Source of the DNA: Candidatus Pacearchaeota archaeon
Lineage (GTDB): Archaea; Nanobdellota; Nanobdellia; Pacearchaeales; GW2011-AR1
DNA: 42,630 nt
Direction of reading: 5' to 3'
NCBI GenBank assembly: GCA_017609885.1
Contig: JAFCDB010000005.1
Location: 1 to 42,630 of the forward strand
Shown: positions 1,689-14,580 of the stretch, in pieces
Layout of the letters: every line of letters begins with the position of its first letter
Position numbering within the stretch: position 1 is the stretch's first letter
Program-made: the position numbers and the translations under genes
Notes under the pieces: model-generated
Databases searched by the model: none
What the model was told of the DNA's origin: nothing
The model's input: the letters and a program-made list of their open reading frames with translations, nothing else

Positions 1689-1740
1689 AAATTTTCTCTC
1701 GAATTCTCCAAAGGCAAGTTCTTCGCGGGGGGAAAATTAA

Positions 1741-1778
1741 GTGGACAGCCCACGCCGCGGGTGGACTATCCTGCCACC
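1741..1778. repeat. GC-rich tandem hairpins at the element's left flank
   Basis: A GC-rich island inside AT-rich intergenic DNA. Two small stem-loops follow each other: GTGG (1741-1744) with CCAC (1750-1753), and GGTGG (1760-1764) with CCACC (1774-1778). The second arm runs into the left attachment-site candidate at 1775. It could be the end of the dedA transcript or part of the original attachment region. Stability was judged by eye only. Confidence 0.35.
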
Positions 1779-1786
1779 ACAGCCAA
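1775..1786 (+). repeat. Candidate attL core (12-bp direct repeat)
   Basis: CACCACAGCCAA, identical to 12886-12897. It lies between the dedA stop and the first element gene. The first nine bases also occur at 30941-30949, so part of the motif recurs in host intergenic DNA; the full 12-mer was seen only at the two element ends. Confidence 0.6.
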
Positions 1787-1810
1787 GTAAAACAACTTTT
1801 ACAAATTGTT

Positions 1811-1975
1811 TTAATGAATGGTGACATAATTATAAGCTAGATTTGGGTTAATAAATTTAACTATATAATATTCATTCCTACCTAACCTCGTTGCAGCAAC
1901 GACAATGCAACCTACATAATAGGAAATCCAACCAGCTACATGAAACCACTTTCCATCATTGATTAGGATTTTCAT
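1811..1975 (-). CDS. Possible small protein, 54 residues
   Basis: A minus-strand frame starts with ATG at 1975 and ends with TAA at 1811-1813. The 54 residues begin MKILINDGKWFHVAGWISYY and look like an alternating beta-rich or membrane-associated sequence with a normal composition. No homologous family was recognised and there is no clear Shine-Dalgarno site. Its 3' end overlaps the left arm-type site at 1818-1826. It sits alone in the 455-base gap between dedA and the first clear element gene, facing the attachment site as a left-end cargo or excisionase-like gene might, but that role is only positional speculation. Confidence 0.35.
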   Translation of the reverse strand: MKILINDGKWFHVAGWISYYVGCIVVAATRLGRNEYYIVKFINPNLAYNYVTIH

Positions 1976-2064
1976 TTTAATAAAAAGAGGGACGGAAAAC
2001 TTTTAGATAAACCACCCCTCTTAATGAAATGGGCTATTTAGATTTTGTGTTGGTTTGTTACTAC

Positions 2065-2103
2065 TATGAATTAATGAATTATCAATGAATTCATTAATTC
2101 ATA
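2065..2103. repeat. 16-bp perfect inverted repeat, operator or origin candidate
   Basis: Arms 2065-2080 and 2088-2103 are perfect reverse complements (core ATGAATTAATGAATT) around a 7-base loop. The half-element AATGAATT also repeats directly at 2073-2080 and 2084-2091. It lies immediately upstream of the TATA-like box of the gene at 2144, so it could be that protein's own operator or an iteron-like replication site. Confidence 0.55.
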
Positions 2104-2111
2104 AATAGAAA

Positions 2112-2121
2112 TGTTTAAATA
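2112..2121 (+). promoter_or_regulatory. TATA-like box for the gene at 2144
   Basis: TGTTTAAATA-type sequence about 24-30 bases before the ATG at 2144, the spacing expected for a leaderless archaeal transcript. It directly follows the inverted repeat at 2065-2103. Confidence 0.5.
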
Positions 2122-2143
2122 GTATTGTGTTTTTAGAAAACAC

Positions 2144-2437
2144 ATGGAAGACACAAGTAAAAAAGAAATTCAAGAAGATTTAGAGAAATGGAAAGCAGAT
2201 TTTGAGAAAGAGGCGAAGAAATATGTCGAGGACTTGAATAAATTAATGGAAGAGGCAGAGAAACAAAAAAACTATGTTGCAGTATTTGGAGGACTTGTTA
2301 AAAAGTGGGGCGGTTCTGCTCATATTCAAATCCCAAAAAAATATGTAGATCATGAGGCAAGGATTTTAATTACTAATAAAAAAGCAGTGAAGCCAAAAAA
2401 AGAGAATGATACAAAAAAAGAGGAGGGAAAAAATTAA
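2144..2437 (+). CDS. AbrB/SpoVT-like small DNA-binding protein (DUF2080-like)
   Basis: The 97-residue product has a charged, probably coiled-coil N-terminal half (residues 1-43) followed by VKKWGGSAHIQIPKKYVDHE near residues 52-71. This matches the K-W-G-x-S-x-H-I-x-I-P-K-K pattern of small archaeal swapped-hairpin (AbrB-like) proteins, often called DUF2080 or transposase-associated. Such proteins are usually dimeric repressors or antitoxin-type DNA binders. The tail is Lys/Glu-rich and probably disordered. A 16-bp inverted repeat and a TATA box lie just upstream, so autoregulation is a reasonable inference. First gene of the element's rightward replication module. Confidence 0.65.
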   Translation: MEDTSKKEIQEDLEKWKADFEKEAKKYVEDLNKLMEEAEKQKNYVAVFGGLVKKWGGSAHIQIPKKYVDHEARILITNKKAVKPKKENDTKKEEGKN

Positions 2438-2542
2438 AGAGATATGATACTTAAAATATAAATCCTAAATATCACACCTTTTTACATGAAAGTTAGGTTC
2501 TTGGGGTTTATAAAATTATCGTATTAAATATACTTTTTAATA

Positions 2543-2746
2543 ATGGTAAAAGAAATGGACTATAATTATCTAACTGATTACTTGAATAAGATTGTGAAAA
2601 TTATTCTTTTAAATCAATATTATTATATTGGAAAAGTTTTGAGTGTTAAAGAACACTCTTTTGTAATTCTTGACAAAACTAATAAACGAGTAACCTTAGA
2701 GCCGAGTTCAATAATTCTATGTGAGGAGGTGCAAAATGGTTACTGA
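2543..2746 (+). CDS. Sm/Lsm-like small protein
   Basis: A 67-residue protein with an N-terminal helix then a pattern compatible with the five-stranded Sm barrel: LNKIVKIILLNQYYYIGKVL, a turn, SFVILDKTNKRVTLEPSSII, and a final strand (ILCEEV). The spacing of V-x-I-x-L, Y-x-G-x-V and F-V-I-L-D resembles Sm1 motifs, and the I-I-L-C-E-E-V end resembles Sm2. If correct it would bind RNA as a ring. A TATA-like TTTATAAAAT near 2508-2517 precedes the ATG at leaderless spacing. It overlaps the next gene by 11 bases. The fold is inferred by eye and could also be another SH3-like barrel. Confidence 0.5.
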   Translation: MVKEMDYNYLTDYLNKIVKIILLNQYYYIGKVLSVKEHSFVILDKTNKRVTLEPSSIILCEEVQNGY

Positions 2747-3080
2747 TGAAGATATGCAAAAGGAATACATGAAACAAAAGGGCAAGAGAAAATTAACAAG
2801 AGCCAGAGCGATCCGCTTATACTGCAGGTATAATTGCTGTGCTAATGATGTAACAAGTTGGAGAAAATGCGAAATGAAGTATTGTTTTTTGTGGCAATAT
2901 AGGATGGGGAAGGAAATTAGTCGCAGAGATAGTAGTTTGAATAAAGCCCCTCTGAAAAAGGGCAGTTCTGAGCCAAATAATGATATTTCCATACCCTCTT
3001 TAAAAAAAACTATAGAGTGTGGTAGCAGTGAAATACCTGCTACTACCCCTAATATTTCTCAGGAGGTATTAAAGGTATGA
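2736..3080 (+). CDS. Cys-rich putative zinc-binding protein of the replication module
   Basis: The ATG at 2736 is preceded by a strong GAGGAGGT Shine-Dalgarno sequence (2723-2730), so I prefer it over the in-frame GTG at 2721. The product has 114 residues. Residues 22-60 hold RARAIRLYCRYNCC, then WRKCEMKYCFLWQYRMG: a C-x3-CC / C-x4-C arrangement ending L-W-x-Y-R-x-G. The same kind of Cys-rich domain is common in phage and archaeal-virus genomes beside primase genes. The remainder is Ser/Pro-rich and probably disordered. It overlaps the downstream replication gene by four bases (ATGA), so the two are translationally coupled. Confidence 0.6.
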   Translation: MVTDEDMQKEYMKQKGKRKLTRARAIRLYCRYNCCANDVTSWRKCEMKYCFLWQYRMGKEISRRDSSLNKAPLKKGSSEPNNDISIPSLKKTIECGSSEIPATTPNISQEVLKV

Positions 3081-5902
3081 TTAAAATAAAATTCCTGAAA
3101 GATACAGAATTGAAAAAGAAAGGTGATGTTGTGAGTTGTTCTAAAAAATCTGCTGAGAGTTCAATTTCTCAAGGTTATGCTGAATATGTTAAAGAGCCGA
3201 AAAAGAAAAAAGTTGTGAAAAAGAAACCAATTAAGAAAGTAGAAAAGATTGACAAAAATGATTTTGATGAAAAGAAGTTTTATGAAAAATACTCAGGAAA
3301 AATAACTTGTGCATTTAAGAAAAATATATTTTTAGACAAGAAGGAACATGAAAGATGTAATGCAAAAAGAACTGCTGAAAGAGATAAATATATTCTAAAT
3401 GAATTAACTGATGACATTTGTTTGATTGAAGTCCCAAAAGATTTAGTTGCTTTGGAATTTGAAAAAGAAGTTAAGATTAATGATGAACTAAAAACAGCGG
3501 ACGAAAAACAAAGAAAGAAATGGATTCAGGAAACTAAAGAAAACGCACAAGGGCATAAATTAGACTGGTGTATTGCAGGGCATGGCGGAACTTCAGACTA
3601 TCTTTATATCTGTAACATTGAAAATCTAATTGAGAATAAAGAACATGAATGTAAAAAAGAAATTGCTAAATTAATTGTGCCTAAAGATGCTTGGGAATTT
3701 CTTGATAAAAGTAATTTAGGAAATACTTTAATCCCAATAATCAATCGTCCACACTGGAAGATTAAAAAATATAATGGTGCAATTCATAAAATACTCGAAG
3801 GCAAAAATCCAGACAAACATAAAAACAAATGTCCTGATATTGTTATCCAAAGAGTTATCGATAATGAAAGACCAAACTTTCCTAAATTTAAAGTTGAAGC
3901 AGACAGCGATATAAATTCTATTCCAATAACTCAAGTAATTCCCATGAGTGGATTAAAGAAAAGAGGAGCTGAATATCAGGGGAGTAACCCTTGGCATGGA
4001 TCTACAACAGGGTTGAACTTTAATGTCAACCCTTCTAAGAATGCTTTTAATTGTTGGAGATGTGGAGGGGGAGGAGGTGTAGCAAAAGCTATCGGTTTAA
4101 ATAAAGGAATTATAAATAATTGCGACGAAGATTTAAGCACAGAACAATTTAAAGAAGTTTTAGAAATCGCAAGAGAAGACTATGGATTAAAGAAACCTGA
4201 GCCAAAGAAACCTGAAAAAAAAGCTCTGTCAAATGATTTGAAAACTTTTATTTTTGATGAATCCAAAATAGTTAAAACATTAGTTTTCACATCTCATAAA
4301 TTAAAAGATAATATTTTTGGGTTTGGAATCAAACTTCCAAGGACGGAAGATTATGAAGATAGTAAAGGGAAAATAATTGGCCAAAAGCAAGTATGGAGGC
4401 CTGTGATAATTACTTCCAATAAAAGAGGCCTTGTTATTTCTGAGTGGATGAAAAACGAATATAAAATACAATATGATTCAATTCCTTATGAAATGTCTTT
4501 AAGATGGGAATTAAAAGATGTTGATAATTATTTACATGGAGAAATCCAAAAGATTGATGGGAAAGAATTATTTGAAGAGATTGTTAATGAATATAAATAT
4601 TATTGTTATTACAGAGAAAAAAATTGGTATTCTGTTAATGCTCTTTGGGATACAGGAACTTACTTTCATCAACTTTGTTCGTCATTTCCTTTGAAAGAGG
4701 AAAGAGGAATTGCTTCAACAGGGAAAACAAAGGGCATGGTTGTTAGTTCTAACATTACATTAAACTCAACAGGGATTATGACTAACCCTTCTGAATCTAC
4801 TTTATTTAGGATAACTGAAGAGTTGAGGCCAACGAAATATATTGATGAGGCCGAGAAGTTATTTAAGTTTACTAAAGACGGGTTGGAAGCAGATAATAGA
4901 GTTGAATTAATTAATGCTTCATATACTAGAAATGGTGCAGTCCCAAGGCAAGAGAAGATAGGAAATAAGTATTTTACTAAATGGTATAGGGTTTATTCCC
5001 CAACAAGAATTGCAAGTATTAATGGATTATATGGTGCGACTGAAACAAGGGCGATTACTCAAATTCATACTAAATCTCCTGATTCTGATTGTCGAGGTGA
5101 AAGAGATCCTGAGGATGATGTAAATAATATTAAATGGAGAAAAATAAGAAATAAATTATATAGATTTACTTTACAAGAATGGGATAAATTTTATAGTAAT
5201 TATATTCAATTTGATATTAAATGTAAATTAAAAAAGAGAGATTTACAAATTTGGAAACCGCTTTTAGTTCTCGCTAAGATAATTGATGAAAAAGATTTGT
5301 TGCCTCAGATTATTGATTTTTCAGAAAAAATATCATTACAGAGAAAGAATGATTTAATTAGTGAAGGAACATTAGACTACAAATATCTGAAATGTCTTAA
5401 TGAATTATTGCTTGTTGCTAAGTCTGAGAGAATTTATGTTGAGGCCATCAGACAAAAATATAATTTATTATATGACGCAACTGATGAAAAAAAGTCAAAT
5501 AAGAGCATTTCAATAAGATTAGATAAATTAGGATTCAAAGAATTAAGAGCTAAAGATATGCATGGTGCTTATTATGATTTAACCAAAACTATCTTTGATG
5601 AAATCATATCCCCAATAACTAACGATTTTTCATCATATTCATCAGAACCATCAGATAATAAAGAAAGTAATAGTAATAGTAATGATGAATGTATGACGAA
5701 TGATGATGATAGTTCTAAAAAGGAAAAAATTAGAAATGACGAAAATGACGAATCTGATGAATATGACGATGGTTTAGGCAAGAATATTCTCTGTCCAAAT
5801 TGTAAAAAGTTTTTAACACCTGATGAAAAAGACAACTACAAGATTGGAGATATTGCTTATTGTTATGATTGCTTTGAAAAAAAACTCGGAGGCAAAAAAT
5901 GA
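3077..5902 (+). CDS. Putative primase/ATPase replication protein, 941 residues
   Basis: The largest element protein. Residues 1-50 form a small phage-type module (KIKFLKDTELKKKGDVV). Residues about 60-280 may be a primase-like domain (AGHGGTSDYLYI is a possible active-site strand). Residues about 300-340 look like a CHC2-type zinc finger: WHGSTTGLNF then CWRCGGGGG. Residues about 540-660 hold a P-loop ATPase: GIASTGKTK (Walker A, about 543-551), YIDEAE (Walker B, about 588), and ETRAITQIHTKSP. An acidic Ser/Asn/Asp linker follows, then a C-terminal zinc ribbon (CPNC about 905, CYDC about 930). Together this suggests a primase-helicase that starts element replication. The ATPase assignment is firmer than the primase one. 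It begins with an ATGA overlap and an AGGAGGT site upstream. Confidence 0.6.
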   Translation: MIKIKFLKDTELKKKGDVVSCSKKSAESSISQGYAEYVKEPKKKKVVKKKPIKKVEKIDKNDFDEKKFYEKYSGKITCAFKKNIFLDKKEHERCNAKRTAERDKYILNELTDDICLIEVPKDLVALEFEKEVKINDELKTADEKQRKKWIQETKENAQGHKLDWCIAGHGGTSDYLYICNIENLIENKEHECKKEIAKLIVPKDAWEFLDKSNLGNTLIPIINRPHWKIKKYNGAIHKILEGKNPDKHKNKCPDIVIQRVIDNERPNFPKFKVEADSDINSIPITQVIPMSGLKKRGAEYQGSNPWHGSTTGLNFNVNPSKNAFNCWRCGGGGGVAKAIGLNKGIINNCDEDLSTEQFKEVLEIAREDYGLKKPEPKKPEKKALSNDLKTFIFDESKIVKTLVFTSHKLKDNIFGFGIKLPRTEDYEDSKGKIIGQKQVWRPVIITSNKRGLVISEWMKNEYKIQYDSIPYEMSLRWELKDVDNYLHGEIQKIDGKELFEEIVNEYKYYCYYREKNWYSVNALWDTGTYFHQLCSSFPLKEERGIASTGKTKGMVVSSNITLNSTGIMTNPSESTLFRITEELRPTKYIDEAEKLFKFTKDGLEADNRVELINASYTRNGAVPRQEKIGNKYFTKWYRVYSPTRIASINGLYGATETRAITQIHTKSPDSDCRGERDPEDDVNNIKWRKIRNKLYRFTLQEWDKFYSNYIQFDIKCKLKKRDLQIWKPLLVLAKIIDEKDLLPQIIDFSEKISLQRKNDLISEGTLDYKYLKCLNELLLVAKSERIYVEAIRQKYNLLYDATDEKKSNKSISIRLDKLGFKELRAKDMHGAYYDLTKTIFDEIISPITNDFSSYSSEPSDNKESNSNSNDECMTNDDDSSKKEKIRNDENDESDEYDDGLGKNILCPNCKKFLTPDEKDNYKIGDIAYCYDCFEKKLGGKK

Positions 5903-6087
5903 AACGTAAAAACTACCGAATCAAACATGGAACAAAATGTCAAACAAGTTGCTGCAACAATCCAGCCAGAGCAATTTGGCGGAATAAAGTTGTCTGTTCC
6001 GATTGTTACTTTTTGAAGAGATTAAGAGAAAGAGCAGTGAGAAAATATAAATTAAATAAAAAGAAAAAAGACAATGACAATTATTGA
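5899..6087 (+). CDS. Small zinc-finger protein, 62 residues
   Basis: Basic 62-residue protein with C-x3-CC (TKCQTSCC, residues 13-20) and C-x2-C (VCSDC), a likely single zinc site, followed by a very basic helix (LKRLRERAVRKYKLNKKKK). It starts in an ATGA overlap with the end of the replication gene, with GGAGG just upstream. Nucleic-acid binding is likely from its charge; no specific role can be assigned. Confidence 0.6.
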   Translation: MKRKNYRIKHGTKCQTSCCNNPARAIWRNKVVCSDCYFLKRLRERAVRKYKLNKKKKDNDNY

Positions 6088-6208
6088 AAGATCAACTTGT
6101 GAGAAGTGTGGTAAAACAACAACTAAATGTTTCACATTTTTTATTAAGAATCGAAAACGTTGCATTTGTTTTCGGTGCTTTCGTAAAAAATTATGGGGGC
6201 GATCATGA
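6074..6208 (+). CDS. Small zinc-ribbon protein, 44 residues
   Basis: ATG at 6074, TGA at 6206-6208, overlapping the end of the previous gene by 14 bases. The sequence has two C-x2-C knuckles (TCEKCG and CICFRC) spaced as in a zinc ribbon, with basic residues throughout (KNRKRC, FRKKLWGR). It is one of three adjacent very small Cys-rich products made from this operon. It resembles short zinc ribbons of phage operons, but no specific family was recognised. Confidence 0.5.
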   Translation: MTIIERSTCEKCGKTTTKCFTFFIKNRKRCICFRCFRKKLWGRS

Positions 6209-6235
6209 TAATAAATAATAGGAGGTTTGTAAAAA

Positions 6236-6373
6236 ATGACTGATATAAATTGGGCTGAGGCAATAGTTGGAACGGTTGTAATATCTTTTGGAATTGTCGG
6301 GGGTTGTTTGATGTTAGCTTGGTTGGAAGCAAAGTTTAATGTCTTCTCTTCAATCTTAGATAATTTAAGATGA
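6236..6373 (+). CDS. Small single-span membrane protein, 45 residues
   Basis: ATG at 6236 with a clear AGGAGG (6219-6224 region) upstream, ending in a TGA that overlaps the next start (ATGA at 6370-6373). Residues about 9-30 (AIVGTVVISFGIVGGCLMLA) form one membrane helix. Strong Shine-Dalgarno plus coupled stop support real translation. Function unknown; a small membrane or virion component is possible. Confidence 0.5.
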   Translation: MTDINWAEAIVGTVVISFGIVGGCLMLAWLEAKFNVFSSILDNLR

Positions 6374-6615
6374 AACAAAACAGAACAACACCATTAAGTT
6401 TAAGTTTTGAAGTTAAGGATGTCTTAGTCAAACTTCGTAAGTTATCAGAACGAAACTGGAACTGGGACGTGGTGTTAATTGATATGATTAATGAGATTGT
6501 TAAGGCAAATAATCTTGACTTAGGATTAAGCGAAGAGCAAGAGAGACGACTACAAGCATTACAACAGCGTCCGCCACGAACAAGGAGGAAAACAGATCCA
6601 AAATGGAAAAGATAA
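6370..6615 (+). CDS. Ribbon-helix-helix-like DNA-binding protein
   Basis: 81 residues. TTPLSLSFEVKDVLVKLRKL then WDVVLIDMINEIVKAN matches the strand-helix-helix pattern of ribbon-helix-helix repressors (a short T-x-L-S-L strand, a K-x-x-L-x-x-L helix, then a W-D-x-V-L-x-x-M-I helix). The tail is Gln/Arg-rich. Translationally coupled to the small membrane protein upstream. Probably a dimeric transcription regulator or partition-type DNA binder; target unknown. Confidence 0.55.
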   Translation: MKQNRTTPLSLSFEVKDVLVKLRKLSERNWNWDVVLIDMINEIVKANNLDLGLSEEQERRLQALQQRPPRTRRKTDPKWKR

Positions 6616-6700
6616 ATGTGAAACTGCCATTGTGCAACACAATATTAATTATCTTATTAATCAATATCCTTAACCATTCCTAAATAATCAAAAAAATAAA

Positions 6701-6823
6701 ATGATAATCAAAAAATACCTAAGAAATGAAGGAATTGTCTCAATTTCCATAAATTCCCATACAATCCAAGTTAAATTGTTAGGATGCACATTATTATTGA
6801 TAACATTAGAAGACGACAATTAA
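6701..6823 (+). CDS. Possible small protein, 40 residues, overlapping the ParB-like gene
   Basis: ATG at 6701 to TAA at 6821-6823. The sequence (start MIIKKYLRNEGIVSISINSH) is hydrophobic-alternating and overlaps the ParB-like gene by 40 bases in another frame. No good ribosome binding site. It may be a real peptide, or the upstream half of a ParB-like gene separated by a frameshift. Both readings are weak. Confidence 0.25.
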   Translation: MIIKKYLRNEGIVSISINSHTIQVKLLGCTLLLITLEDDN

Positions 6824-7074
6824 ATGATATTGAGAAAGTTATGATTTGTAAAGAGGTGGAGAAGTTAGAAAAGGGTGAAGCAGAGAAGAGAAAAGCCACA
6901 TCTAATACGAATAGGGAAAATATTCCCTCTTCGGAAAAAGGTAAGGCATCAGATAAATCAGCAGACAAAGTTGGATGGACAGGAAAGACATTTAAGAATA
7001 AAGAAATGTTTGTGGATTTAGCAACAGAAACAGAATTAGAACAATGGAACATAAAGAAACAAAAGAAAAGATGA
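6784..7074 (+). CDS. ParB-like protein, short or truncated
   Basis: 96 residues. DNIRRRQLNDIEKVMICKEV then a KGKASDKSADKVGWTGKTF block matches the linker and helix-turn-helix part of ParB/Spo0J-type proteins (N-x-x-R-R-x-L-x-x-x-E-K, then S/A-D-x-A-x-x-V-G-x-S/T-G-K-T). The N-terminal CTP-binding part of ParB (with G-E-R-R) is missing, and only 96 residues are present against the roughly 250-300 usual, so the gene is either a minimal DNA-binding version or truncated. In an integrative element it would fit a plasmid-style partition or regulatory role. There is no ParA nearby. Confidence 0.45.
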   Translation: MHIIIDNIRRRQLNDIEKVMICKEVEKLEKGEAEKRKATSNTNRENIPSSEKGKASDKSADKVGWTGKTFKNKEMFVDLATETELEQWNIKKQKKR

Positions 7075-7177
7075 AATCGGAAATTGCCAATCGGCATACA
7101 TATTTTAATATCTTACAGAGCTACTGGTTAATTCGATTTCTTAAATACATTTTCAATTTTCCTAAGAGGTGGATGAG

Positions 7178-7675
7178 ATGAATTTGAAAATTCCTGATAC
7201 AATAACAGAAGAAGAAATGTTGAAAATAGTCAAGGCAACAAAACAACCAAGAACTAAATCAGCTTATAAGATTGCTTTCTATCAATGTCTAAGAGTTTCT
7301 GAAGTTCTTAACCTACTCCCTGAACACATTGATAAGGAGGGTGGTTGGATTCATGTAAAAAAAGGAAAGGGAAACAAGGACAGGGATATTCCAATTATGA
7401 AACCTGCTTTGAGTTCTTTGAACAATCTTCCAATTAAATTAACCAGACAAGCCCTACATAAATCAATTAAAGCAAAAGGGAAGAAAGTTTTACAGAAAGA
7501 TATTCACTTCCATACCCTCAGACATTCAGGAGCTTCAATGTATCTTACTGAAAAGGATGTCAATATAAAATTTATCCAACAACTACTAGGGCATTCAAGG
7601 TTGGCTACAACTGAGATTTATCTTCATGTAAACCCCAAACAATTAAAAAAAGGATTTCAAAATGTATGGAAATAA
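7178..7675 (+). CDS. Tyrosine recombinase, catalytic core only
   Basis: 165 residues from the ATG at 7178, chosen because GAGGTG (7166-7171) is at good spacing; an in-frame GTG at 7169 is the alternative. All catalytic residues are visible: R39 (CLRVSE), K67 (GKGNKDRDIP), H112/R115 (HFHTLRHSGAS), H139 (LLGHSRLATT) and Y148 (TEIYLHV). It lacks the N-terminal SAM-like arm/core-binding domain of XerC/D and phage integrases (usually about 300 residues). It is distinct from the larger integrase at 11690-12838, so the element encodes two recombinases. Possible roles are resolution of dimers, inversion, or assisting integration. Confidence 0.8.
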   Translation: MNLKIPDTITEEEMLKIVKATKQPRTKSAYKIAFYQCLRVSEVLNLLPEHIDKEGGWIHVKKGKGNKDRDIPIMKPALSSLNNLPIKLTRQALHKSIKAKGKKVLQKDIHFHTLRHSGASMYLTEKDVNIKFIQQLLGHSRLATTEIYLHVNPKQLKKGFQNVWK

Positions 7676-7726
7676 CAATAAATGTAAACTTTCGAGTATA
7701 TCGTTTCAGAAGGAAAATGGAGGTAG

Positions 7727-7756
7727 TGGTTTACAAAGTAATCACTATGTAAACCA
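7727..7756. repeat. Inverted repeat TGGTTTACA / TGTAAACCA
   Basis: Perfect 9-bp arms at 7727-7735 and 7748-7756 with a 12-base spacer, in the gap just after the small recombinase gene. TGTAAAC also occurs directly at 7683-7689 and within the end of the recombinase gene near 7627. The cluster looks like binding sites for a dimeric protein, perhaps the recombinase or the RHH proteins. Confidence 0.45.
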
Positions 7757-7779
7757 AAATAACATTCGTGTGAACTAAA

Positions 7780-7968
7780 ATGAAAACGATAAAATTCCAA
7801 TTAGGAGATTCAGACTACAAACTATTCATGCAGAAAGTCCATGAGCAAGTAGGCGAGGGACGTGGAGATGTAAGAAAGTTCATTGAATGGATAAGCCGAA
7901 ACAACTTTGCAGTCTTAGACAGCAATTTGAAATCTATGCTTAAATGTCTCCCGCTTAATTCTGAATAG
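7780..7968 (+). CDS. Hypothetical protein, 62 residues
   Basis: Starts MKTIKFQLGDSDYKLFMQKV and continues with a helix-rich segment. The short N-terminal strand followed by helices could suit a ribbon-helix-helix or other small regulator, but this is not clear. No Shine-Dalgarno is evident; the inverted TGTAAAC sites lie directly upstream, so its expression could be controlled there. A new promoter follows its stop, so it ends its transcription unit. Confidence 0.45.
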   Translation: MKTIKFQLGDSDYKLFMQKVHEQVGEGRGDVRKFIEWISRNNFAVLDSNLKSMLKCLPLNSE

Positions 7969-7972
7969 TAAC

Positions 7973-7982
7973 ATTTAAATAG
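7973..7982 (+). promoter_or_regulatory. TATA-like box for the small-gene cluster at 8029
   Basis: ATTTAAATAG sits about 50 bases before the ATG at 8029. A transcript starting about 25 bases downstream would have a short leader that includes the AGGAGG ribosome binding site at 8018-8023. Confidence 0.45.
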
Positions 7983-8028
7983 GTTAATATCCTACATTTA
8001 ACATACATAAATCATACAGGAGGATAAA

Positions 8029-8196
8029 ATGGATATAGAAAAAGTAAAGAAAAAAGACAAGGGAAAAAGCTCAGTAATGTCAATTCGTGTAAACGAAGAA
8101 AATAGTGCATGGATGAAAAAGAATGAGATTTCACCCCAAGCCGTCTTTAATGAAGCTATAAAAGAGCTTCGTGAGAAAGTAAAAAAACAAAAGTAA
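8029..8196 (+). CDS. Ribbon-helix-helix-like protein, 55 residues
   Basis: ATG at 8029 with a strong AGGAGG at 8018-8023. The product is basic, with SSVMSIRVNEENSAWMKKNE then SPQAVFNEAIKELREKVKKQ: a short strand (VMSIRV) and two helices, the layout of ribbon-helix-helix repressors of plasmids and viruses. TAA at 8194-8196 lies one base before the next ATG, so the next gene is coupled. Likely a transcription regulator of the element. Confidence 0.55.
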   Translation: MDIEKVKKKDKGKSSVMSIRVNEENSAWMKKNEISPQAVFNEAIKELREKVKKQK

Positions 8197-8197
8197 A

Positions 8198-8326
8198 ATG
8201 GAAATCGAAATATATCAAGCGACACCAAAAGAACTAGAAAATCCAGAGATACCAGAACAGGACTTTGATTTTCTAGGAGTTCCAGTAATGGAACTACCAG
8301 TTTTTAATTTAGAATTTTGGGACTAA
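8198..8326 (+). CDS. Small acidic protein, 42 residues
   Basis: ATG at 8198, TAA at 8324-8326. The product is acidic and Pro-rich (EIEIYQATPKELENPEIPEQ, then DFDFLGVPV, ending NLEFWD). It begins one base after the stop of the basic RHH gene. A basic DNA binder paired with a small acidic protein suggests an antirepressor or toxin-antitoxin-like partner, but that is only inference. No family recognised. Confidence 0.45.
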   Translation: MEIEIYQATPKELENPEIPEQDFDFLGVPVMELPVFNLEFWD

Positions 8327-8357
8327 GTTAGTCCTAAACTTTTATATATTTTTTTGA
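8320..8357 (+). terminator. Hairpin with T-rich tail
   Basis: GGACTAA (8320-8326) pairs with TTAGTCC (8328-8334) across one base, overlapping the stop codon of the acidic gene, followed by T-rich DNA. The T-rich stretch also holds a TATA-like TTTTATATA near 8339-8347, suitable as promoter for the gene at 8370, so terminator and promoter appear to be nested. Confidence 0.45.
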
Positions 8358-8369
8358 TTTTTATTTGTT

Positions 8370-8480
8370 ATGACTAATAAAATTCCCAATTTTATGCGAC
8401 TTCGAATCAATATGCAAACAGGACAATTATTTCTCGAGAAATTTCCTAAACCTAAAAAGAAAAAGAGGAAAAGAAAATGA
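8370..8480 (+). CDS. Small basic protein, 36 residues
   Basis: ATG at 8370, TGA at 8478-8480. It begins MTNKIPNFMRLRINMQTGQL and ends in a Lys/Arg-rich tail (PKPKKKKRKRK). It starts about 25 bases after a TATA-like box (8339-8347) and ends in an ATGA overlap with the next gene. The overlap supports translation. Function unknown; nucleic-acid contact through the basic tail is plausible. Confidence 0.4.
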   Translation: MTNKIPNFMRLRINMQTGQLFLEKFPKPKKKKRKRK

Positions 8481-8608
8481 TTGATTTCGTTTTAATCGGC
8501 AGAGCATTTTGGAAAGGAAAAAAATACTTTTTACAAATTGAGAAAATAATTACTTCTGATAAAAGCAAACCAATAAACGCAGAAATTATCGAGGTGAAAA
8601 ATGAATAA
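8477..8608 (+). CDS. Hypothetical protein, 43 residues
   Basis: ATG at 8477 overlaps the previous stop; TAA at 8606-8608. The sequence (MIDFVLIGRAFWKGKKYFLQ, ending NAEIIEVKNE) looks like a small beta-rich protein. Coupled to the 36-residue gene upstream. No recognisable family. Confidence 0.4.
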   Translation: MIDFVLIGRAFWKGKKYFLQIEKIITSDKSKPINAEIIEVKNE

Positions 8609-8648
8609 TTATATTTCTTTAAAGTTGGATTTAAAGAAACCATTTGAT

Positions 8649-8680
8649 ACGGAGGGTTCTCTTTTACCCTCCGTCCTTTT
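8649..8680 (+). terminator. Strong hairpin before the large element gene
   Basis: ACGGAGGGT (8649-8657) and ACCCTCCGT (8666-8674) are perfect 9-bp arms around an 8-base T-rich loop, followed by a T-rich run. It sits 16 bases before the TGGAGGT ribosome binding site of the gene at 8696. It may be a terminator or attenuator isolating the structural-type genes; the right arm also contains an anti-Shine-Dalgarno-like CCTCC. Confidence 0.55.
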
Positions 8681-8695
8681 TCTTGGAGGTAAAAA

Positions 8696-9622
8696 ATGGT
8701 TTCGTTAACTGAGCGAATCACACAATGGAAAAGTCAGATTGGTGAAGCTGAAAGGAAGTTTGCAGAACAAACTGAACGAGTAGCTAGTGCAGAGACAGGA
8801 CTGAGCCAACAAGAGCAAGAATTCCGACAACAAACACAAGAAGAACCTCTAACTTTAGAAAGGCAATTTAGTTTTGCCGAAGCTGTAGGTATTGGAGGTG
8901 TTCAGCAAAGATTTAAAGAAATTAGAAGACAAAAAACAATTGCTCGAAAAGAAACCTTGCCAAAGTTTGCAAGAGCAAGGCAAGAAATCCAAACAGCAAA
9001 AGCTCAAATAGCTTCTAAGCGAAGTGAACTTGCAAGTTTTGAAAAACAAGTCGCAGATATTGAAGCTTTTGAAAGAGGAAGACAAATTGGTTTAAGTGGA
9101 AGACTTCGTCGTCCACTATCACGAGAAGAAAAGAAAGGTTTTTTTTCTGGAATCGGTTCTCGAAAAGCTTTTGAACAAGAACGAAAGCTAAGAGAAATCG
9201 GCAAACCTTTATTCGATGGTGGGCAACTAACAGGTTTTATCATTGGCGAAAAAGGACAAGAACAAAGTGTAGCTCTTTCTGCTTTAGATCAACCGAGTTT
9301 AACAAAATTAGAATCTGCTGGTGTAATTAAATTTCAAACAAAAGACGAAGCGTTATTGGGTGCAACAGATTTAGGAAAGTCATTCACAGGACAAGATGTT
9401 TTATTTGTTACTGGAAGACGTGGAGTTGATGTAGTTCCTGTTTCTGAATTTAGGGTAAAACAAGAATTACTAGATATAAAAACAGATACTGGAACAGGGG
9501 ACTTATTAGATTCAGTAAAAAGAACAGTAACAAAAACTGAAAGACAAAGAGACGAAGATATTTTAAGTAAGTGCAACAGACATTGGAAAGGGTTTGGCTT
9601 CAATTACAACAACTATAAGTGA
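8696..9622 (+). CDS. Coiled-coil protein, 308 residues (first part of a frameshifted protein)
   Basis: ATG at 8696 with TGGAGGT upstream. Residues about 1-140 are a long Gln/Glu/Lys-rich coiled coil; residues about 150-280 are mixed (a GTGDLLDSVKRTV segment near 265). The last 16 residues after ILSK are unlike the rest. The next frame, starting at about 9570, continues naturally as SATDIGKGLASITTT into the 636-residue frame. Deleting one A in AGTAAGTGC at 9566-9574 would join both into a protein of about 940 residues. So this is either a frameshifted gene, a sequence error, or a programmed +1 frameshift. Likely a structural or surface protein of the element; no family recognised. Confidence 0.6.
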   Translation: MVSLTERITQWKSQIGEAERKFAEQTERVASAETGLSQQEQEFRQQTQEEPLTLERQFSFAEAVGIGGVQQRFKEIRRQKTIARKETLPKFARARQEIQTAKAQIASKRSELASFEKQVADIEAFERGRQIGLSGRLRRPLSREEKKGFFSGIGSRKAFEQERKLREIGKPLFDGGQLTGFIIGEKGQEQSVALSALDQPSLTKLESAGVIKFQTKDEALLGATDLGKSFTGQDVLFVTGRRGVDVVPVSEFRVKQELLDIKTDTGTGDLLDSVKRTVTKTERQRDEDILSKCNRHWKGFGFNYNNYK

Positions 9623-11504
9623 ACCACCTCCATTAACTTTCGAACCAGCACCTCAACAGCAATTTGGAAAGTTAAAAACATTTATTCAAGAAAAAGAAAT
9701 AGCAGGTTTTCGAGGAGAAATAACTCCATCAGGAAGAGCTAATTTATTTGGTGCTTCAGTTCTACAATCAGTTATAGAATTTCCCTCAAGAACTTTTCAA
9801 TTTGGAAAAGCTATAGCAACTCAACCAGTAAAAACCATTACAGGTATTCCTTCTGGTGTTGTAGCTTCTGCTCAAGAGTTTGGAACTCAATTAGCTTCAC
9901 CCACACCAGAAACAGCATTAGGGACTTTGACAGGCGAGGTTTTGGTGTTAAAAGGAACAGGAAAAGCAATAGGCGTAGCAGGAAAGGGATTTGAGTTAGG
10001 TTCTGCTAGGTTCTCTACTAAGTTTGTATCTACTGGAGATGTTGCTCTTGGAACTGGAACGGGGCTTAAAGGAATTAAAATAAAAACAAAAGTTCCAGTT
10101 GTATTTGAGGCAGAGGGTTTTAGACAAAGTTTTAAGTTTGCCGATGATTTAGTTGTAACCCAAAAGTTTGATATTCCGTTTGCACCCTCACCAATTTCTA
10201 AAGTTGCTGAACCTGTAAGTCTTCAAATTGGTAGGGCAGGTGAAACAATAAAAGCAGTTTCAGCACAAACAGATTTTCCTTTAGGTGCTGAATTAGATAG
10301 GTTATTATTCTTTGATCCAAAAGGAAGATTAAGAACTTCGAGGTTAGGAATAGGTGTTCAAAAAGAAGCTAGTCTATCAGACATTTTTTCAGGTGACGTA
10401 ACATTTAGAAAAGGAAGACCCCAAGCTTTATTCGGAGATTTTCCAGTTGCTAAACCTCCTCAAGATATTTTAGCTAAATTATCTGCAGGGAAACCTCTAA
10501 CTCAAGCAGAACTTAAAAGGTTCGGACAATTTGTTGAAACCCCAACAGGACAATTAAAACCAGTTCCGCAATTTAGAGAACGTGGTTTTGGTGCTGTCGA
10601 ACCTGAAGTAACTTTTGGTACTGGTGAAATTCCTTTTAAGAAAGGACTTCGAGGTAAAGCAATTATCAAAGGTAGGCGAGTGGATATTATTGAAATTGGT
10701 GTAAAACAATTTACAAAAGAAACACAAAAAGCATTTGACGATATTGCAAAAGCTTTAGGGGGAAAAGATATTGGAGGACTTGGGGGAAAAGGGATTGACG
10801 ATTTAGGAAAGGGAGGATTAGGAACTGGAGGACTTGGAACTCTAAGCGAGAAACAATTACAAGCTTCACTTAAAACTTTATCAAAAGAAACTGGTTTTAG
10901 TGTTGGAGAATTATCTTCTCAATTTGTGTCACCTAAACCATTTGTTTCATTACCTAAACTATCAACTCTTTCAGGTTTGTCTTTATCGAGGTTAGGAAAG
11001 GGGAAGGGAGTTAGTGGAGGACTAGCTCCGCCCTCTAAAGTAACTCCCTCACTCAAAGTTTTTAAGACTACATTTACTCCAACTGGTTTTATTCCTTCTT
11101 CACCTAGAGTTCCACCACCTCCAATTTTAAAAACTGGAATTACAATCCCTACTTTTGAATTTGATCCATTTCAAACACAGCCAAGAAAAAAGAAAACACC
11201 TAAGAGGATTAGAGGTTCTGCTGAAAGAAAGAGAAGGCAAAGGGAAAGAAAACTATTAGGGAGAGAACGATTGATTAGACCGAGCTTTACTGCAATAGTT
11301 CAAGCTAGTGGGATACGTCCTAAAGGGCAAGGTAGGGAATTCGAACGTCCAGCATTTACAACTAAGGTCGGTAGGCGAGACGTGGGCATAAGTCCTTTTA
11401 GTTTGAGAGGCACGAAGACAGGTTTTGTGAAACAACGAAAAACTATAAAGAAAAAAGTTAGTAGAAAAAGAAGTTCCCTAGACTTTGGATTTACGAATCT
11501 TTAG
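9594..11504 (+). CDS. Large Gly-rich/basic protein (second part of the frameshifted protein)
   Basis: The frame is open from after a TAA at 9564-9566 to 11504. Its only possible starts near the beginning are weak (TTG at 9594), which supports expression as the continuation of the preceding frame. Visible regions are a Pro/Thr-rich N-terminus, amphipathic stretches (residues about 60-130), a Gly-rich stretch of GGLG/GGKG repeats (about 389-420), a Pro-rich segment (about 500-530) and an Arg/Lys-rich C-terminal 100 residues. No membrane span is clear. The size and composition suggest a virion, tail-like or nucleoid-type protein. I recognise no family. Confidence 0.5.
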   Translation: MASITTTISEPPPLTFEPAPQQQFGKLKTFIQEKEIAGFRGEITPSGRANLFGASVLQSVIEFPSRTFQFGKAIATQPVKTITGIPSGVVASAQEFGTQLASPTPETALGTLTGEVLVLKGTGKAIGVAGKGFELGSARFSTKFVSTGDVALGTGTGLKGIKIKTKVPVVFEAEGFRQSFKFADDLVVTQKFDIPFAPSPISKVAEPVSLQIGRAGETIKAVSAQTDFPLGAELDRLLFFDPKGRLRTSRLGIGVQKEASLSDIFSGDVTFRKGRPQALFGDFPVAKPPQDILAKLSAGKPLTQAELKRFGQFVETPTGQLKPVPQFRERGFGAVEPEVTFGTGEIPFKKGLRGKAIIKGRRVDIIEIGVKQFTKETQKAFDDIAKALGGKDIGGLGGKGIDDLGKGGLGTGGLGTLSEKQLQASLKTLSKETGFSVGELSSQFVSPKPFVSLPKLSTLSGLSLSRLGKGKGVSGGLAPPSKVTPSLKVFKTTFTPTGFIPSSPRVPPPPILKTGITIPTFEFDPFQTQPRKKKTPKRIRGSAERKRRQRERKLLGRERLIRPSFTAIVQASGIRPKGQGREFERPAFTTKVGRRDVGISPFSLRGTKTGFVKQRKTIKKKVSRKRSSLDFGFTNL

Positions 11505-11690
11505 ATATAATTTTTTAAGTCCGACTATTGCAGAAATTATTAAAATCCATATAATGAAAGTTCCTAATAATTCTCCAAAAAAACTTTCCCATATAAAATA
11601 AGTTTGATGTTCATAATAATAGAGAAAATAAACAATAGTCAAAGCATACAAATACCATCTCGTAAACAACCATTTCAAATATTTTTTCAT
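11478..11690 (-). CDS. Small two-span membrane protein
   Basis: 70 residues with two hydrophobic helices (about residues 14-25 and 40-57) and a basic C-terminus. Its ATG overlaps the integrase stop by one base (TAATG), so it is co-translated with the integrase. Its 3' end overlaps the end of the large Gly-rich gene tail to tail by 27 bases. Function unknown; a small membrane protein in an integrase operon could be a superinfection or lysogeny factor, which is only a guess. Confidence 0.55.
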   Translation of the reverse strand: MKKYLKWLFTRWYLYALTIVYFLYYYEHQTYFIWESFFGELLGTFIIWILIISAIVGLKKLYLKIRKSKV

Positions 11691-12838
11691 TACCCTATCA
11701 CCTCATTCATAAGTTCAGACATATCAATATCTTCGGTAAGAGTTTCCCCTCTAATTTTCACTTTTTTCATTTTGGTTTTGCCTAATCTTTCTTTAATTAC
11801 GACGTTAAGTATATTTTTAATTTTATCTATTTCTTTATTTTGTTTTGCAATTTCCTTTTCAAATTCTACTTTATCTTCAGGACTTAGTTCTTCAAACTTA
11901 TAAACTCTTGAAATGATATTGTTCTGCATATCTTTGTCGTCCATTGAATTATAGACAGCATCCATTTTGGAGTTTGCAGAATGTCCCCCAAACTTTAATC
12001 TATCTGCTGTATCAACATTAAATCTAATTTTCAATTCTGTTAATCTTGTGTGGCGTAGCAAGTAAGGATAAACATATTTTTTAATCTTGGCTCGTCTTGA
12101 CAATTCTTTAATTACATAACAGAAACTCCAAACACTAATCGGTTCTTCTTTATTGACAGGAGAATAAAAAATATAATCCTCGCCTTCAATATTTTCAGAA
12201 TAATTTTTCCAGTTCTTTAAATAAACAATACAATCTTCGTTTAAGGGGAGTTCTCGATTGCTGTTTGTTTTACTTGAATAGATATGGAAAGTTTTGTTGT
12301 CAAAATCTATCTGCTTCCATTTTGCTAACCTTAATTCATGTGGACGCAAAGCCAACATATACTCCACAACAAACTGAGCTTTTTCTCTTGGAGTTTTACA
12401 CGCTTTCAACATTCTTTCAATTTCTTTTTCTGTTAGTAAATTATTCTTATTGATTTTCTTCCTATTAACTACATGATTTTTTAATTTTAGTTCGTCTAAA
12501 ATATCTCGCATATCAATATCTTTTTTGTAATACCATTTTAGAAATCTTTTAACCGTGTGCTTTGCATGGTTCTTAGTATGGACTTCTCTGTCTGAATCAT
12601 TAACCAAAGCCCAGTATTTTTTTATGTCTTCAGGTTTAAGTTTGTCTAGTGGCTTTTCTATAATGTCAATGAAAGCCAAGAAGTTAGGGCGATAGATTTT
12701 GTATATTCTTGCCTTGCCTGAACCAGCTGAAGAAATCTCTGTCATATAATCCTCATAGATTTTTTTCTGCTTTCCTTTCAGTTTATCATAGACAAACATA
12801 GTTCCTGTTTTGCTGTAATTCGGATAGCTTGATTTCAT
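11690..12838 (-). CDS. Tyrosine-recombinase integrase
   Basis: 382 residues. An N-terminal SAM-like DNA-binding domain (about 25-115) is followed by a catalytic domain with R165 (LALRPHELR), K190 (SSKTNSNRELP), R262 (YLLRHTRL), H286 (GGHSANS) and Y296 (DAVYNSM). The first His of the H-x-x-R box is Y259 here. The last 75 residues are a charged coiled coil. A TATA-like TTATAAATAT (12861-12870) is 23 bases from the ATG, and a GGTGTCACC palindrome that contains the right arm site lies between them, so integrase binding could repress its own promoter. It is next to attR, as in most integrative elements. Confidence 0.85.
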   Translation of the reverse strand: MKSSYPNYSKTGTMFVYDKLKGKQKKIYEDYMTEISSAGSGKARIYKIYRPNFLAFIDIIEKPLDKLKPEDIKKYWALVNDSDREVHTKNHAKHTVKRFLKWYYKKDIDMRDILDELKLKNHVVNRKKINKNNLLTEKEIERMLKACKTPREKAQFVVEYMLALRPHELRLAKWKQIDFDNKTFHIYSSKTNSNRELPLNEDCIVYLKNWKNYSENIEGEDYIFYSPVNKEEPISVWSFCYVIKELSRRAKIKKYVYPYLLRHTRLTELKIRFNVDTADRLKFGGHSANSKMDAVYNSMDDKDMQNNIISRVYKFEELSPEDKVEFEKEIAKQNKEIDKIKNILNVVIKERLGKTKMKKVKIRGETLTEDIDMSELMNEVIG

Positions 12839-12848
12839 AAAAATAGGG

Positions 12849-12897
12849 TGTCACCATGCTTTATAAATATTTGTAGTTTAGCAATCACCACAGCCAA
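12849..12897. promoter_or_regulatory. Right end: arm site, integrase promoter and attR core
   Basis: From left: TGTCACCAT (12849-12857, reverse complement of 1818-1826) within the palindrome GGTGTCACC (12847-12855), a minus-strand TATA box (12861-12870), then CACCACAGCCAA (12886-12897), identical to 1775-1786. The core also forms the left arm of an imperfect inverted repeat reaching 12906 (TCACCACAG / CTGTGATGA, one mismatch). Confidence 0.6.
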
Positions 12898-12931
12898 CTG
12901 TGATGACAATTATCAAAGAAAATTCTATATT

Positions 12932-13315
12932 TTAAATTTTTCTAAAACTCAAAACTGCTAAATACCCTAACCCTGCAAGCAAAATTCCACTAACATCAAA
13001 TAAAACATCCGCAAAAGTGCAAAATCTTCCAGGAACAAAAAACTGATGAATTTCATCTGAAACCGCGTATAAAATTAAAATAATAAAACTTAAAAAAAGA
13101 AATTTTAAATTTTTTTCCTTTCCTTGAATAATAGAAATTAAAAAAAAGACCCCCAACAAAAAGAAAATAAAAGAGTGATAAATTATTGAATACGAATTTC
13201 CTTTTTGCGCAACAACAGGTTCAAAAGAAATAGATGAAAAACAAAAAATTATAATTGCAATTAAAATAGTTATGCCCAGAGATAATTTATTATGTTTTTC
13301 AAAAAATTTTATCAT
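12932..13315 (-). CDS. VanZ-like family membrane protein
   Basis: 127 residues with four hydrophobic segments and the VanZ signature SDEIHQFFVPGR followed by D-V-x-x-D (FADVLFDVSG) near residues 85-107. VanZ-like proteins are small four-helix membrane proteins; in bacteria VanZ gives low-level teicoplanin resistance, but most members, including archaeal ones, have no known substrate. Its start overlaps the stop of the MTAP-APRT gene by one base, so the two form an operon although no functional link is obvious. Confidence 0.75.
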   Translation of the reverse strand: MIKFFEKHNKLSLGITILIAIIIFCFSSISFEPVVAQKGNSYSIIYHSFIFFLLGVFFLISIIQGKEKNLKFLFLSFIILILYAVSDEIHQFFVPGRFCTFADVLFDVSGILLAGLGYLAVLSFRKI

Positions 13316-14580
13316 TATTCCCCCTTAAACTCCACAATACTAAACACCTCTCCTGATAATTTTCTTCGCCCTCCCAAATCCGGTAGTTCAATAATAAACC
13401 CTGTAGAAATTATCTCCCCTCCCAATTTTCGAATCAAATTCTGTGTTGCTCCTGCAGTCCCCCCAGTTGCAAGCAAATCATCAACTAACAAAACCTTCTG
13501 CCCAGGAGAAATTGCATCCTTATGAATCTCCACAGCGTCAGTTCCATACTCCAAAGAATATTCTTCCTTCAAAGTTTCCCGAGGCAATTTCCCTGGCTTT
13601 CTAATAAGCACAACTCCCTTGCCAAGACGCAAAGCCAAAGCACTGGCAACAATAAATCCCCGACTCTCAATCCCAGCAATCAAATCAATCTCTTTCTCCT
13701 CATAGCGCTTTTCAAAAATGTTAATCACCCTTTTCAAACCCTCAGCATCCTGAATCAAAGAAGTCACATCCCGAAAAATAACTCCTGTCTTCGGAAAATT
13801 CTTAATAGAAATAATCCGCGACTTAATAAAATCCTCATCCTCATTCACAATCTCAGGCAAAATCCCAATAATCAGCTTCTTAACTTTCTCAGAATTTTCT
13901 TTCATTCTCTGCATCACCATCTCAAAAGTTACTGGAGATTCATTTTCTTTCCAGCAGTCATAATCAGTTGACATTGCAACAGTTGCATATTCAATTCCCA
14001 GCTCCCTTGCCAGTGAACACTCAGGAACAGCAGTCATGCCAATTATATCAGCAAAATTTCTAAACATAAAGCTCTCTGCTTTTGTTGAAAACCTCGGCCC
14101 TTCAATAACAACAATCGTTGCCTTGTCATGTTTTGCAAATCCAAGTTCTTTCGCATTTCTAATCAAAATCTTTCTCAAATTCGAAGAAAATGGTTCAGCC
14201 ATCTCAGTATGCTTTACCTCTCCAGGAGAATCATGAAAAGTCAACTTCCGATGTTTTGTAAAATCAATAAACTGATCTGGAAAAACCAAATCCCCTGGTT
14301 TAATTTCTTCTTTCAAACTTCCAACAGCACTAGTTGCAATTATTTTTTCACAACCAAGAGATTTCAAAGCATAAATATTCGCACGATAATTAATTTGTGA
14401 AGGAGGAATTTCATGATTTTTTCCATGGCGAGCAAGAATGCAAACCTCTATCCCTGCGAGTTTCCCGCATACAATCTTAGAGGAAGGCTTTCCATAAGGA
14501 GTCTCAACTTCTTTTTCTTCATAATTCTTCAACAACTTAGAGTCATCTAACCCACTGCCTCCAATTATCCCAATTTTCAT
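13315..14580 (-). CDS. Bifunctional MTA phosphorylase / adenine phosphoribosyltransferase
   Basis: 421 residues in two joined enzymes. Residues 1 to about 245 are an S-methyl-5'-thioadenosine phosphorylase (IGIIGGSGLDD, RHGKNHEIPPSQINYRANI, EGPRFSTKAE, MTAVPECSLARELGI, STDYDCWKE). Residues about 255-421 are an adenine phosphoribosyltransferase (FPKTGVIFRDVTSL, GIESRGFI, and the PRPP loop VLLVDDLLATGGTAGA at 363-378). MTAP cleaves methylthioadenosine from polyamine synthesis to adenine and 5-methylthioribose-1-phosphate; APRT turns adenine plus PRPP into AMP, so the fusion would salvage adenine directly. The TATA-like box at 14601-14610 is at leaderless spacing. VanZ-like gene follows. Confidence 0.93.
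   Translation of the reverse strand: MKIGIIGGSGLDDSKLLKNYEEKEVETPYGKPSSKIVCGKLAGIEVCILARHGKNHEIPPSQINYRANIYALKSLGCEKIIATSAVGSLKEEIKPGDLVFPDQFIDFTKHRKLTFHDSPGEVKHTEMAEPFSSNLRKILIRNAKELGFAKHDKATIVVIEGPRFSTKAESFMFRNFADIIGMTAVPECSLARELGIEYATVAMSTDYDCWKENESPVTFEMVMQRMKENSEKVKKLIIGILPEIVNEDEDFIKSRIISIKNFPKTGVIFRDVTSLIQDAEGLKRVINIFEKRYEEKEIDLIAGIESRGFIVASALALRLGKGVVLIRKPGKLPRETLKEEYSLEYGTDAVEIHKDAISPGQKVLLVDDLLATGGTAGATQNLIRKLGGEIISTGFIIELPDLGGRRKLSGEVFSIVEFKGE

Follow-up and report, generated by a model that had tools for sequence, protein, structure and literature searches.

What does the integrase of a small mobile element take as its target in a little-studied archaeal lineage, and what becomes of that target once the element is in place? 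The question is raised by a window of 42,630 nucleotides (the whole stretch of DNA that was analysed) from a Candidatus Pacearchaeota archaeon, in which the initial annotation had placed an integrase-bearing element of about 11.1 kb between two copies of a 12-bp repeat. Taken as a whole, the best explanation of this locus, and one that we hold with considerable confidence, is that the element's own tyrosine recombinase inserted it within the first stem-loop of an RNA gene that is both conserved and structured, and that the gene was probably rebuilt. The host is archaeal, as had been proposed, given a match to the archaeal 16S model (805 bits) in the assembly, and its genome of 0.75 Mb (about 89% complete) makes membership of the DPANN group plausible.

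Boundaries and empty sites of the element

The two copies of the repeat and the integrase gene are located as follows.

1775-1786: attL copy of the 12-bp repeat CACCACAGCCAA, joining the host RNA-gene half to the left end of the element
12886-12897: attR copy of CACCACAGCCAA, within the dyad TCACCACA-GCCAAC-TGTGATGA (12885-12906)
11690-12838, minus strand: tyrosine recombinase (integrase) of 382 aa (Pfam PF00589, E 2e-22)

The sequence shows that a mobile element of about 11.1 kb is integrated here with the boundaries given, the proposed ends being borne out both by empty sites in relatives and by the RNA gene that they split. Repeats of 12 bp are common across the window (144 pairs lie 5-15 kb apart, four of them with at least seven G+C), but dinucleotide shuffles of these particular boundary regions yield a match of 12 bp in only 14 of 5000 cases. 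When used as a query, the left flank leads to a genome of the same genus (G118, which represents another species and not an element-free strain of the same species), where the same GC-rich hairpin is immediately followed by an uninterrupted TCACCACAGCCAATGCGTGATGA adjoining VanZ and serS. When compared with this empty site, the rejoined flanks score 93, as against 60 for attL and 62 for attR. Empty-site counterparts, for which the initial annotation had suggested a search, are thus present beside VanZ/serS in G118 and in two further genomes of the genus (G050 and G139), all three of which have the gene order serS-VanZ-RNA-rpsJ in common. The element-free arrangement in the window's genome would be a joined TCACCACAGCCAACTGTGATGA between the second hairpin and VanZ. 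The predicted empty-site junction is ...CTGCCACCACAGCCAA joined to CTGTGATGACAATT..., and that of the circle is ...GCAATCACCACAGCCAA joined to GTAAAACAACTTT... (12897 to 1787). Elsewhere in the window, a single ORF at 13315-14580 encodes an S-methyl-5'-thioadenosine phosphorylase fused with an adenine phosphoribosyltransferase.

A conserved two-hairpin RNA gene as the target

Judged by sequence comparison among relatives, the 12-bp repeat sits in a conserved, single-copy, two-hairpin RNA gene of roughly 65 nt on the minus strand, the two parts of which are now separated by the element.

1733-1786, minus strand: 3' portion of the host's split RNA gene, with the 3' strand of hairpin 1 (1772-1780) followed by the GC-rich hairpin 2 (1743-1771)
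12885-12918, minus strand: native 5' half of the host's RNA gene, which has come to lie upstream of the integrase gene and points towards it

In many genomes of the host's family, a pattern search returns a single site, cross-hits to 16S aside. Covariance model R2 matches 54 of 180 genomes of the family (model R1 matches 46 of 180 at the level of the order), and 52 of these 54 contain exactly one match. Two matches are seen only in the window's genome (G000) and in G128, in both of which they are the two junctions of an element; in the window, they lie at 1733-1807 (attL, minus strand, E 2.4e-10) and 12865-12918 (attR, minus strand, E 2.4e-6). By these model matches, an RNA gene that is split, with an element between its halves, is shown for G000 and G128 only. 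In a sample of the phylum, 9 of 279 genomes give matches, two of which are outside the family and one of these two is apparently spurious. An apparent false positive (G361) was excluded from use, and the unrelated locus L109 was dropped from the RNA set together with L110, which by eye is a tRNA-Pro.

The proposed structure is supported by covariation. Among 39 element-free copies, 95% of cells are paired and two-sided changes are seen in 17 of 18 pairs, with a covariation score of 0.75 compared to 0.22 in shuffles (none of 500 reaches the score) and to 0.13 at most when partners are slid. Because this alignment was fitted to the model, the 14 of 18 pairs with two-sided changes in an independent MAFFT/RNAalifold analysis provide the safer figure. 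The hairpin 2 loop CGCGGCG is conserved, and both GGCTG and CGCGGCG are invariant in the aligned copies. Moreover, TATA-like hexamers at 33 native loci peak at -24 to -21 relative to model position 1, and this fixed upstream distance establishes which strand is transcribed (minus in the window).

Several other identities for the target were considered. A tRNA gene is ruled out, given that ARAGORN and Rfam find no tRNA at the boundaries in the window; more distant relatives of the integrase adjoin tRNA genes (L011 Glu, L012, L019 Gly). The complement of the conserved loops shares GCCGCG and CAGCC with the 530-loop of 16S rRNA, which is the source of most raw pattern matches. A role for the RNA in pairing with 16S rRNA was set aside, however, because divergent members do not retain GGCUG. 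The dyad, with arms of about 8 bp, a 6-bp spacer, and a single copy per genome, also resembles a chromosomal dif/Xer-type recombination site, and the element encodes an Xer-like short recombinase. That the dyad is such a site rather than part of an RNA gene is nevertheless scarcely credible, as both hairpins covary, including the second, which lies outside the dyad, and a TATA box is found at a fixed upstream distance. In addition, loop lengths vary from about 8 to more than 30 nt across element-free genomes, which would be intolerable for a dif site.

It also seems unlikely that the two-hairpin sequence is the 5' leader of rpsJ (ribosomal protein S10) and not a free-standing RNA gene, even though many genomes, the three of the same genus among them, have the start of rpsJ a short distance downstream in the same orientation. 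The gene downstream of the RNA varies, many other genomes having no rpsJ at this position, and the next gene downstream of hairpin 2 in the window is a convergent dedA. At several loci, a separate TATA-like box is seen by eye between hairpin 2 and the start of rpsJ, as is a T-rich stretch after hairpin 2. Taken as a free-standing gene, the RNA has no match among the 4227 models of Rfam 15, whether in the window or in intact copies. It is conserved and structured, is present as a single copy in about 30% of the family genomes sampled, and has its foldability kept even by the elements that interrupt it. We consider this new RNA family to be the most valuable by-product of the analysis, and with a 5' end, promoter, and loops that can be predicted, its function becomes a well-defined question.

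The left junction and the 9-bp inverted motif

Two features on the element side of attL bear on how the gene is restored.

1787-1835, minus strand: element-supplied replacement 5' half, with the 5' stem strand UGUCACCAU (1826-1818) and an extra inner hairpin
1848-1860, minus strand: TATA-like box TTAAATTTATTAA carried by the element; its distance to the rebuilt stem downstream is 34 nt, which is the native spacing

That the element brings a replacement 5' half (TATA box, stem strand, and inner hairpin), thereby reconstituting a chimeric gene for a foldable RNA at attL, is supported but not proven by predicted folds. In the predicted structure, UGUCACCAU pairs over 9 bp with host GUGGUGGCA (1780-1772), and an equally stable fold with the host half is obtained for 7 of 600 other element segments, so that the chimera beats 593 of the 600. 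The nearest relative of the integrase (52% identity) is encoded by an element of the same layout in G128 (L056, 9590-17395 of G128:C4), for which the corresponding number is 17 of 600 (583 beaten); shuffles of the stem only give about 4% for each of the two elements. Each of these restoration tests is moderate on its own, and the outcome is the same in two elements. The element side of L056 carries TCATATTCATCTC, which is identical to the native 5' sequence in three other species, and by eye it has no TATA box at the native spacing. The folds formed by UGUCACCAU and by L056, together with TCATATTCATCTC, therefore suggest that each of the two elements brings its own replacement for the 5' half, one that enlarges the loop; in the window, the rebuilt RNA has a first hairpin much longer than the native one. 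Since enlarged loops are also present in element-free genomes, a host copy of this kind may be the origin of the supplied half or, alternatively, these copies may be scars. Native copies with an enlarged first hairpin (L171, L172, L173, L176, and L132) have no integrase in the fetched flanks, and the same is true within the flanks fetched for enlarged-loop copies in G098, G108, G053, G034, and others.

A different account of this region had been given in the initial annotation, in which a 9-bp motif inside both ends was read as the arm sites of attP. The coordinates of ATGGTGACA (1818-1826) and of its reverse complement (12849-12857) are exact, as are the gaps of 31 (left) and 28 (right) bases to the core, and the right copy does belong to the integrase promoter region, with the TATA-like TTTATAAA (12860-12867) on one side and the ATG at 12838 on the other; the integrase gene is likely leaderless behind this box. 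Many tyrosine integrases bind arm sites, and a nearly symmetric motif pair with one copy in the promoter might mark an ordinary element, in which paired 9-bp arm sites flank the attP core, the right one autoregulates int, and the target is an unremarkable intergenic sequence. We regard this explanation as very improbable. An inverted match of 9 bp or longer is seen in 649 of 5000 shuffles (13%), and is therefore no evidence by itself. Moreover, the host stem strand is the pairing partner of the left copy, the element lies in a conserved RNA gene rather than in a plain spacer, and the arrangement and its spacing are not kept in the closest relative, the attP of L056 having instead a 13-bp inverted repeat that hugs the core. 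Hence, the motif pair is real but the arm-site architecture read from it is not supported. The left copy is better explained, on the basis of the predicted fold, as the 5' strand of the rebuilt RNA stem, and the right copy may be due to chance or may be an integrase arm site.

For integration into the RNA gene, the empty site is the dyad TCACCACA-GCCAAC-TGTGATGA, with CACCACAGCCAA common to element and host. The integrase would recognise this dyad and most likely exchange strands in the loop/spacer GCCAAC, as is the case for archaeal and bacterial integrases that act in anticodon loops (PMC8371274). Since the exchange affects the 5' half, the promoters would be swapped: integration would put the host RNA promoter and a half-hairpin before the integrase gene, and the element promoter, which in the circle would read through attP towards the integrase, would take over the rebuilt RNA. 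This swap would be reversed upon excision. It is conceivable, although we advance the idea tentatively and with some doubt, that this undescribed conserved small RNA is a hotspot for integrases that rebuild and remodel it, swapping promoters and enlarging the first hairpin, and that the enlarged hairpins in element-free genomes are integration scars.

Gene content and comparison with known systems

In addition to the integrase, in which alignment reveals conserved R165, K190, R262, H286, and Y296, the main genes of the element are the following; several further small proteins are encoded on the plus strand.

2144-2437, plus strand: small DUF2080-type protein of a transposon-associated family (Pfam PF09853, E 1e-5; NCBIfam)
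2543-2746, plus strand: 67-aa protein with weak LSM (Sm-like) similarity (E 0.006, below cut-off)
3077-5902, plus strand: 941-aa replication protein with a DnaG-type CHC2 zinc ribbon (Pfam PF01807, E 2e-7) and an ATPase region with Walker A (GIASTGKTK)
7169-7675, plus strand: second, short tyrosine recombinase of 168 aa, the catalytic part alone (PF00589, E 2e-26; XerA/XerD-like in NCBIfam)
8696-11504, plus strand: large late protein gene, split into ORFs of 308 and 636 aa by a tandem AAGTAAGT at 9565-9572
11478-11690, minus strand: 70-aa hydrophobic protein adjoining the integrase

Relatives of the 941-aa replication protein are found in 15 other genomes, and homologues of the 67-aa protein adjoin a primase homologue in two elements (L066 and L067), with one more in L064. 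In other family genomes, each homologue of the large late protein is encoded by one uninterrupted ORF (660-1100 aa); the split by AAGTAAGT may be a real mutation, a programmed shift, or an assembly error. A contig that encodes one such homologue also encodes a reverse transcriptase (L193, 2333-3391 of G164:C63; phrog_1423, E 1e-118), which is possibly part of a diversity-generating retroelement. A like layout of replication genes, large late protein, and reversed integrase is seen at L058 (5312-15016 of G148:C45), where the short tyrosine recombinase is replaced by a serine resolvase and the right end has another GC-rich hairpin. By eye, this locus has a possible 13-bp repeat after an S27ae-like gene and, at the position of the 70-aa protein, a similar protein of 81 aa with TRWY in common. 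A sub-threshold match to a CRISPR repeat (CRISPR-DR7) adjoins another integrase relative (L016, 3654-3690 of G146:C18).

In agreement with the initial annotation, neither a capsid nor a terminase gene is recognised among the main element proteins using Pfam, PHROGs, and NCBIfam. The same searches give no matches among the element proteins to the portal, terminase, or major capsid protein of a Caudoviricetes provirus, or to the VP3/VP4-like proteins and rolling-circle Rep of Pleolipoviridae, and the viral contigs searched contain no relatives with the primase or the large late protein. Among phage records, the best integrase match (28% identity, E 4e-21) is in the Geoglobus pleomorphic virus GacPV1 (BK065156), which is similar in size (13.4 kb). 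The integrase is the only protein matched when its ORFs are compared by BLAST, however, and its record lists VP3/VP4-like proteins and a rolling-circle Rep; in the element of the window, by contrast, the replication protein contains a DnaG-type zinc ribbon.

The closest known counterpart, L056, uses the same RNA gene as target in the same orientation and also supplies the 5' half. Its repeat of 17 bp, which is 37 bp from the integrase start, is centred in the dyad TTCATCTCA-GCCTTG-TGAGATGAA. L056 differs, however, in being about 7.8 kb long and in encoding a terminase large subunit and an AAA-type ATPase, and the integrase region is the sole BLAST match among the element genes of the window. 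Members of this targeting group therefore differ in gene content.

Integrases of the pTN3 type in Thermococcales have the 5' half of a tRNA-Leu gene as attB, and integration rebuilds the RNA gene, which loses the promoter that it had before and is expressed from that of the integrase (PMC8371274; PMC5495485). The window element resembles pTN3 in having the 5' half of an RNA gene as its target, in the probable rebuilding of that gene, and in the exchange of promoters that we infer. pTN3, however, has a tRNA target, shares 41 bp with it, and breaks up its own integrase gene when it integrates; for the window element, the target is not a tRNA, 12 bp are shared, and the supplied half is longer and different in sequence. 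Nor is its integrase of the suicidal pTN3/SSV type, in which attP lies inside the integrase gene, as the ORF is unbroken and attP is 48 bp upstream of the integrase start. With the SSV1 and lambda types (PMC8371274), the element has in common a dyad with a loop of 6-7 bp as the overlap region and the restoration, probable here, of the target RNA gene. The stem-loop in the window belongs to a non-tRNA RNA, however, and the element side keeps the pairing but not the sequence.

Prophages in small-RNA genes are reported for Salmonella and E. coli (PMC5502288, citing Bobay et al.); here, too, the attachment site is a small non-tRNA RNA gene, but the hosts are bacterial and the sRNAs are known. A 2021 review of archaea gives tRNA genes, protein-coding genes, and intergenic regions as the only integration targets (PMC8371274). 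Within the open papers covered, an integrase aimed at a non-tRNA RNA gene is new for archaea. With sRNA targets known in enterobacteria and absent from the archaeal list, the present case is therefore a variant of known targeting. It adds a boundary-proven integrated element from a little-studied archaeal lineage, and extends the list of archaeal targets beyond tRNA, protein-coding, and intergenic sites.
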